This document shows positions 36,814 to 40,940 of a DNA stretch of 64,000 nt, piece by piece. The position numbers were made by a program, and so were the translations under genes. Location of the stretch: positions 535,018-599,017 of the forward strand of contig NZ_CP049785.1 in NCBI RefSeq assembly GCF_011290385.1. The letters are read 5' to 3'. This DNA is from Blattabacterium sp. DPU. GTDB lineage: Bacteria > Bacteroidota > Bacteroidia > Flavobacteriales > Blattabacteriaceae. The notes beneath the pieces were generated by a model. The model was given only the letters and a program-made list of their open reading frames with translations, did no database searches and was not told the origin of the DNA. Every line of letters starts with the position of its first letter. Position 1 is the first letter of the stretch.

Positions 36814-36896
36814 TACCCAGAGCGGGATTCGAACCCGCATGATGTAAAATCACTGGATTTTGAGTCCAGCGCGTCTCCCTGTTCCGCCATCTGGGT
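36814..36896 (-). tRNA. tRNA-Leu (anticodon CAA)
   Basis: A class II tRNA. The acceptor stem pairs ACCCAGA with TCTGGGT, followed by the discriminator A. The anticodon loop CTCAAAA, closed by CTGGA/TCCAG, gives CAA, which reads UUG. There is a long variable arm and a T arm with GGTTCGAATCC. CCA is not encoded. It lies 11 bases beyond ureC on the opposite strand. Confidence 0.96.
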
Positions 36897-36924: not shown

Positions 36925-37361
36925 CTAAAATGGATATATAAGTTTTTTCATTTCAATTTTCAATTTTCTTAAAAAAGAAAATTTTTCATGTTCTTCATCA
37001 TTTTTTTCATATAAATAAACAACTCTTTTTATATTAGATAAAAAAATTAGTTTACAACATTCTGTACATGGAAAATGAGTGATATATATGGAAGCGCCTT
37101 TACAAGATAAATAATAATGAGATATTTTTAATATTGCATTTGCTTCTGCATGTATAACATACCATTTTGTATTTCCGTTTTGATCTTCACAAGAATCATC
37201 GAATCCGTTAGGAGTACGATTATATCCATATGATATGATTTGGTTATTGTTAACTATAACAGCTCCTACTTTTTTTTTTTACAAAAAGAAAATTTGGATT
37301 GTTCAATTGCTATATTCATATATACGGTATCATCGTATTTTTTATAAATTTTATAAATCAT
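36925..37361 (-). pseudogene. dCMP deaminase with a one-base frameshift in an A11 tract
   Basis: Zinc deaminase converting dCMP to dUMP (ComEB/dCMP deaminase family). The 5' part runs from the ATG at 37361 and ends SFCKKKK before a premature TAG, just after a run of 11 A residues (T at 37270-37280 on the plus strand). The next frame continues without a break as VGAVIVNNNQIISYGYNRTP and on to the stop at 36925. It carries the zinc motif HAEANAIL and PCTECCKLI intact. Twelve A residues would restore one frame of about 146 residues with the family sequence CKKKKVGA. It may be a pseudogene, a sequencing error or a gene rescued by slippage. The start lies 9 bases from the divergent SpoU gene. Confidence 0.85.
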
Positions 37362-40576: not shown

Positions 40577-40940
40577 ATGCAATTTAAAGAAGATAAAATT
40601 TTTGAAAAAATAATAAAAAATGGAAAATATATATTAATATATCCTGTTTTGTCTGTTTTTTTATATAAAAAAAGAAATTTTGAAAAAAATTTACCAATAA
40701 ATCTTGTAGGAACTATAGTAAAAAAAAAATTTTAAAAAATCAGTTCATAGAAATAGAATCAAACGTTTATTGAAAGCTTCTTTTTTTGTAAATAAATCAA
40801 TTTTAGAAAAACATATTACCAATATAAATCGTAATTATTACATAATTTTAATTTATAAAGCTTATTACTTACCTGAATTTAAGGATATCAATGAGTCTAT
40901 TATAAATATTTTCAATAAAATAAAATTATTGTTGAAATAA
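40577..40940 (+). pseudogene. rnpA: RNase P protein component with a one-base frameshift
   Basis: Protein subunit of RNase P, which removes 5' leaders from pre-tRNAs. The first frame (ATG at 40577) gives 51 residues ending NLVGTIVKKKF and then TAA at 40733. The break follows a run of A10 then T4 (40720-40733). The downstream frame (from 40740) reads SVHRNRIKRLLKASF, the RNA-binding signature, and continues to TAA at 40938. Deleting one base in the A10T4 tract restores VKKKFKKSVHRNRIKR. The signature is intact, so this is either very recent decay, a sequencing error, or slippage. A 10-base direct repeat AATGCAATTT lies at the start. The end overlaps the convergent marC by 15 bases. Confidence 0.85.

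Follow-up and report, generated by a model that had tools for sequence, protein, structure and literature searches.

A dCMP deaminase gene one A short of its reading frame in most Blattabacterium species, and its probable rescue by slippage on the poly(A) run

According to later accounts of the original work, frameshifts in poly(A) runs that are rescued by slippage of the RNA polymerase are known in Buchnera and Blochmannia (Tamas et al. 2008, via PMC5009743 and PMC3017870), and selection has preserved ancient homopolymer frameshifts in Blochmannia (Wernegreen et al. 2010, via PMC3017870 and PMC4389277), where each genome carries 4–8 such genes (PMC4389277). The same was suggested for Walczuchella, a flavobacterial symbiont (PMC3971599). 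Corrected transcripts are reported to make up 12–50% in the case of frameshifted poly(A) genes from symbionts of aphids and ants (reviewed in PMC5009743). Homopolymers accounted for 151 of 157 transcription insertions recorded in Buchnera; the insertions rose exponentially with the length of the run and outnumbered homopolymer deletions, of which there were 16 (PMC5574713). For Blattabacterium, our literature search, which was incomplete in coverage, found no report of slippage-rescued poly(A) frameshifts. Here we describe a dCMP deaminase gene of Blattabacterium sp. DPU that is split by a run of 11 A residues, and we compare this locus with its counterparts throughout the genus.

The dCMP deaminase locus and its occurrence in the genus

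Blattabacterium lives in cockroaches as their obligate symbiont. The genome of Blattabacterium sp. DPU (G000) is a single contig of 623,008 bases, and the window, meaning the whole stretch of 64,000 bases that was analysed, comprises positions 535018-599017 of this contig. The relevant features are listed in Table 1. The dCMP deaminase gene is flanked by a tRNA-Leu gene on one side and by a divergent SpoU-type methyltransferase gene on the other. Its first frame specifies 31 residues, MIYKIYKKYDDTVYMNIAIEQSKFSFCKKKK, ending with CKKKK and a stop. The second frame, one base off the first, reads VGAVIV...HAEANAIL...PCTECC and is here without a start codon of its own upstream of the catalytic motif. 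The first-pass annotation had placed the break at this A11 run, and its coordinates proved accurate to the nucleotide, the coding strand being the minus strand. As it had also described, the translation of the neighbouring frame opens precisely at VGAVIV, and HAEANAIL and PCTECC are both intact in that second frame.

Table 1. Features of the dCMP deaminase locus and of the rnpA and murD breaks in Blattabacterium sp. DPU (window coordinates unless a contig is named)
Feature	Position	Strand	Remarks
tRNA-Leu	36814-36896		neighbour of the dCMP deaminase gene
dCMP deaminase, second part	36925..37269	-	VGAVIV..., zinc-site HAEANA + PCTECC; 114 codons + stop (36925-36927)
TAG stop of first frame	37266..37268	-	directly 3' of run
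A11 run, site of frame break	37270..37280	-	exactly 11 T on + strand; in-phase context TGT AAA AAA AAA AAG TAG
dCMP deaminase, first part	37281..37361	-	ATG at 37361; 27 codons up to run; MIYKIYKKYDDTVYMNIAIEQSKFSFC
rnpA (RNase P protein)	40587..40922	+	frame broken at A10 run 40720-40729
murD run	G000:C1:448100-448108		outside window; A9 instead of A10

When the two halves were joined, the resulting reading matched PF00383 (dCMP/cytidine deaminase) over residues 11–117 with E=4e-24. The second half alone matched with E=8e-21, 10 bits below the joined reading, and the first half alone had no Pfam match. Moreover, the alignment of the joined reading with dCMP deaminases of solved structure starts ahead of the run and extends to the end (4p9c, E=3e-25), and the full-length match expected of this family was found together with the H-A-E and P-C-x-x-C zinc-site motifs. 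Since thymidylate synthase (thyA) is encoded in this genome, while our searches of the same genome found no dCTP deaminase and no dUTPase that passed, dCMP deaminase is probably its main source of dUMP. Some relatives that have the A11 break do possess a dUTPase (G002). Specifically, it was undetected in G000 and G015 and present in G002 and G043, being located near rnpA in the former and on a second contig in the latter.

To place the break in the genus, the junction was taken from each of 49 species genomes of Blattabacterium. The dCMP deaminase gene was present in all 49. The run was a pure A11 in 30 genomes, a pure A10 in two (G047 and G007) and otherwise disrupted in one (G046), while the remaining 16 species were in frame, either with a pure A12 (nine species) or with a 12-base run that contains G, C or T (seven species). 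A13 or longer was found at this run in none of the 49 species. A pure-run break of the dCMP deaminase gene is therefore common to 32 of the 49 genomes, which exceeds chance, given that only about 5% of the coding A11 runs break a frame in four whole genomes. In 48 of the 49 genomes, the first segment is conserved and stays in frame as far as the run. In G046 (L035), a tandem duplication has affected the first part of the gene just upstream of the run, and a TAG precedes the A10 run; this looks like the only species with a truly disrupted dCMP deaminase gene, or else like a misassembly. Because the nearest less reduced relative in the same family (G050, 1.3 Mb) is in frame with CNRKQVGA, which has four residues between C and V, the in-frame state is ancestral to the stem of the genus, with four codons as the family length.

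The history of the run was followed on a 49-genome tree built from 5.5 kb per genome, with a rooted check based on the MurD protein. The state changed between broken and in frame at least 11 times, which parsimony resolved as seven repairs and four breaks. The branch length that could be assigned amounted to 5.4 substitutions per site in the broken state versus 1.26 in frame, and in one clade of eight deep-branching, fast lineages the run was A11 throughout.

Both parts of the gene were open over the full length of the family in all 32 broken pure-run species. Pooled pN/pS after the run was 0.33 for pairs of broken species versus 0.28 for in-frame pairs. Before the run, 14 codons gave a value of 0.20 for broken pairs, which, with so few synonymous sites, is usable only as being well below 1. 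Nonsynonymous change is thus as constrained in broken as in in-frame species, and both halves are under purifying selection while the gene is broken. Apart from the break the gene is intact, with its catalytic motifs kept. The run itself was uninterrupted in 32 of 32 broken pure-run species and interrupted in seven of the 16 in-frame species (Fisher P = 1.6e-4, for species that are not independent). This supports a role for the pure run, short of proof, as interrupted runs mutate less and stay in frame. In the A11 species, the wobble positions of the lysine codons in the run were not clearly slower than the rest of the gene, a comparison of little power since AAG makes up just 3.5% of the lysine codons outside the run.

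Frame breaks at other long A runs

The first-pass annotation had called for a genome-wide scan at long A runs, and four genomes (G000, G002, G028 and G033) were scanned in full for genes that are split at a homopolymer into two frames in the genome under study but read as a single frame in a relative. A break was counted only if a relative had the gene intact, the raw list of short peptides at runs of nine or more being dominated by gene boundaries. One hit (244844) was left out: in its region the genomes match each other in the open frames of both strands, and it does not resemble a protein gene. The dCMP deaminase gene, which is broken in all four genomes, is invisible to such a scan and was added to the counts per genome. 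In this way we identified 37 cases of coding A runs of nine or more that break the frame. The share of coding runs that do so grew with length from A9 to A12: 5 of ∼1474 A9 runs (0.3%), 11 of ∼572 A10 runs (2%), 8 of 168 A11 runs (5%) and 9 of 77 A12 runs (12%), with 4 of 49 among runs of A13 or longer. Including dCMP deaminase, the number of broken genes was 11, 6, 12 and 12 in G000, G002, G028 and G033, respectively. The refuting outcome named in the first-pass annotation, that no further genes of this sort exist, did not occur, as 11 genes of this genome are broken at A runs of nine or more and the break recurs in the genus. To speak of a genome-wide mode of expression is too strong, as only about 2–12% of the coding A10–A13 runs are out of frame and most are in frame. 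For T runs of 10 or more, about one clear break was found among ∼90 coding runs, which is too few to judge an asymmetry between A and T.

As judged by Pfam, the broken genes of G000 include murD, pth, a prmC-like gene, a nadE-like gene and rnpA, as well as genes for a Sua5/YrdC protein, a GHMP kinase, a dnaX-like clamp-loader protein and an FtsX-like permease; the prmC-like and dnaX-like labels rest on domain and length. Two species have a break in the peptidyl-tRNA hydrolase gene (pth), each at another A run within the gene (G000:C1:107610-107619 and G028:C1:602678-602689), and the frameshifted genes listed for Blochmannia vafer include pth as well (PMC3017870). With regard to direction, 33 of the 37 cases were one A short (or need a −1 shift), and four need the opposite shift. 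Such an excess of genes that are one A short would be explained either by a rescue that adds one A or by a replication that deletes more than it inserts.

Two of these genes were followed through the genus. The cell-wall synthesis gene murD was broken at one and the same A run in about 23 of the 49 genomes as judged from its match pattern. Direct classification showed it to lack one A in 21 of them, mostly with ATA followed by A9 versus A10 when in frame. The rnpA gene had been put forward as a second case within the window, and its break is real. However, rnpA of this genome needs the opposite shift to that of dCMP deaminase, namely one A fewer or two more, all three phases occur across species, and the rnpA gene of strain Bge was published as the only pseudogene of that genome (PMC2768785). 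Among the 27 species in which both halves could be placed, the junction was in frame in seven and in each of the other two phases in ten. Constraint on rnpA also looks weaker, with rough pN/pS values of 0.56 and 0.82 in which indels are unhandled. A near-uniform phase combined with recognisable halves is what frame-indifferent expression and slow decay would give alike.

Possible routes to the full-length enzyme

From the comparison of genomes, it is very probable that the cell corrects the frame while copying or reading the dCMP deaminase gene. We consider it likely that this is a functional gene of which the genomic run is one A short and of which the frame is restored in a fraction of the products by slippage, mainly through an RNA polymerase that adds one A. 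The polymerase would slip on A11 and thereby generate a mixed pool of transcripts, of which those with one extra A (12 in total) would be read through as CKKKKVGAVIV... to give active enzyme, and the remaining ones would yield only the peptide of 31 residues. Some of the enzyme may also come from a ribosomal −1 slip on A AAA AAG. If slippage covers both lengths, the run could move between A12, which is in frame, and A11 at little cost, with A11 as the commoner state, and about ten other genes per genome may be in a like situation to a lesser degree. The absence of A13 or longer would be expected if the addition of one A is the usual correction. Also in favour are the growing share of frame-breaking runs with length, the Buchnera insertion data and the corrected transcripts of other symbionts cited above, and the probable role of dCMP deaminase as the main source of dUMP. 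Against this reading, a large survey of Buchnera transcripts encountered no transcription error that restored a frame (PMC5574713), and a deletion bias in replication could also yield the excess of genes that are one A short. The earlier claim that slippage adding one A would lead to a working enzyme nevertheless stands as the best explanation for a gene that is selected while broken, even though ribosomal −1 frameshifting would give an identical protein.

Such frameshifting could take place on the in-phase A AAA AAG, the dnaX slippery sequence, and would allow an A11 mRNA to yield the full-length enzyme without being altered. The heptamer is in phase with a stop directly after it, the peptide would be the same as the slippage product, and the 33:4 bias towards genes that need a −1 shift fits as well. 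However, RNAalifold predicted no pairs (energy 0) in the 90 downstream bases of 33 broken species. Furthermore, only the last seven bases are needed for frameshifting, yet the entire run is pure in the 32 broken species, and the opposite shift is needed by as many rnpA lineages as the −1 shift (10 versus 10), which −1 frameshifting could not provide. On these three grounds RNA polymerase slippage is favoured as the main route, and we regard ribosomal frameshifting as an unlikely substitute.

It is highly unlikely that we are dealing with a young pseudogene that was broken independently and is being lost. Genomes of this kind do lose genes via homopolymer indels, G046 carries a further stop as well as the duplication, and there is the precedent of the rnpA pseudogene in strain Bge. 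Yet the state is common to 32 species with both parts open and a pN/pS of 0.33, the catalytic motifs persisted along broken branches totalling 5.4 substitutions per site, and all eight species of the deep-branching clade share A11. Neither relaxed constraint nor further disabling changes were found, with the exception of G046. Conservation of both halves would also be seen if two separate polypeptides assembled into one enzyme, but this is very improbable, as the join lies immediately before the VGA strand of the family and the protein is a single chain in 16 species. In addition, 26 of the 33 broken species lack any ATG, GTG or TTG upstream of HAE in the second frame, for which reason the C-terminal half was rejected as an independent gene. 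Lastly, homopolymer assembly or sequencing errors, to which long A runs are prone, are hardly credible and were rejected because the pattern is non-random: A11 recurs in 30 of the 49 genomes while ∼95% of the other coding A11 runs are in frame (four genomes), and random errors would scatter and include A13.

Polymerase slippage as the probable rescue of the dCMP deaminase gene also permits a broader and more doubtful idea. Blattabacterium might have become partly indifferent to frame at long A runs, in which case genes such as dCMP deaminase, murD and rnpA would normally be expressed through slippage, throughout the genus and since very early times. The length of the run would then drift freely, as in the near-uniform phases of rnpA, and A11 of dCMP deaminase may even be favoured as a fixed means of setting the enzyme dose.

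Genes that are broken in the same way as dCMP deaminase are labelled as pseudogenes by automatic annotation. Published lists for Blattabacterium call even such central genes as metG, gltX, dnaN and atpG pseudogenes (PMC6039017); if these are poly(A) breaks, the reconstructions of gene loss and metabolism in which they are taken as lost could be mistaken. With 49 lineages, Blattabacterium also represents a natural experiment on how long frame-broken genes persist and what level of slippage is sufficient.

Comparison with described systems

As a protein, the joined product resembles the deoxycytidylate deaminase family (PF00383; 4p9c, 2w4l, 2hvv) over the whole length of the fold and in the HAE and PCxxC zinc-site motifs, and differs from it in being encoded in two frames in this Blattabacterium genome. 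With dnaX-type programmed −1 frameshifting the gene has in common the in-phase A AAA AAG, the nearby stop and the direction of the shift. In contrast to dnaX, it lacks a conserved downstream structure as judged by RNAalifold and seems to need one full-length product, and some species need no shift.

The closest likeness is to the poly(A) frameshifts of Buchnera and Blochmannia, with which the dCMP deaminase gene shares a one-base break in a long A run, an otherwise intact gene, an AT-rich obligate insect symbiont as its bearer and the fact that some breaks are common to several species. Three features of a slippage-rescued poly(A) gene were found here, namely a one-base break in an A or T run of about nine or more, purifying selection on an otherwise intact gene while broken, and occurrence of the break in relatives. 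Like the frameshifts of the type described by Wernegreen et al. in Blochmannia, those of Blattabacterium are long retained and under purifying selection, and they affect a similar number of genes per genome, 6–12 versus 4–8. However, the set of genes is different, many more species were compared in Blattabacterium, and its association with the host is older, at >200 My (PMC9603385) versus ∼40 My for Blochmannia (PMC4389277). Buchnera and Blochmannia are Gammaproteobacteria, whereas Blattabacterium belongs to the Bacteroidota; here, the broken state forms the majority among 49 species and flips back and forth. What is new beside the Buchnera and Blochmannia cases is therefore the phylum, the recurrence across the genus and the prevalence of the broken state, and the Blattabacterium case is unusual in being widespread, old and changeable.
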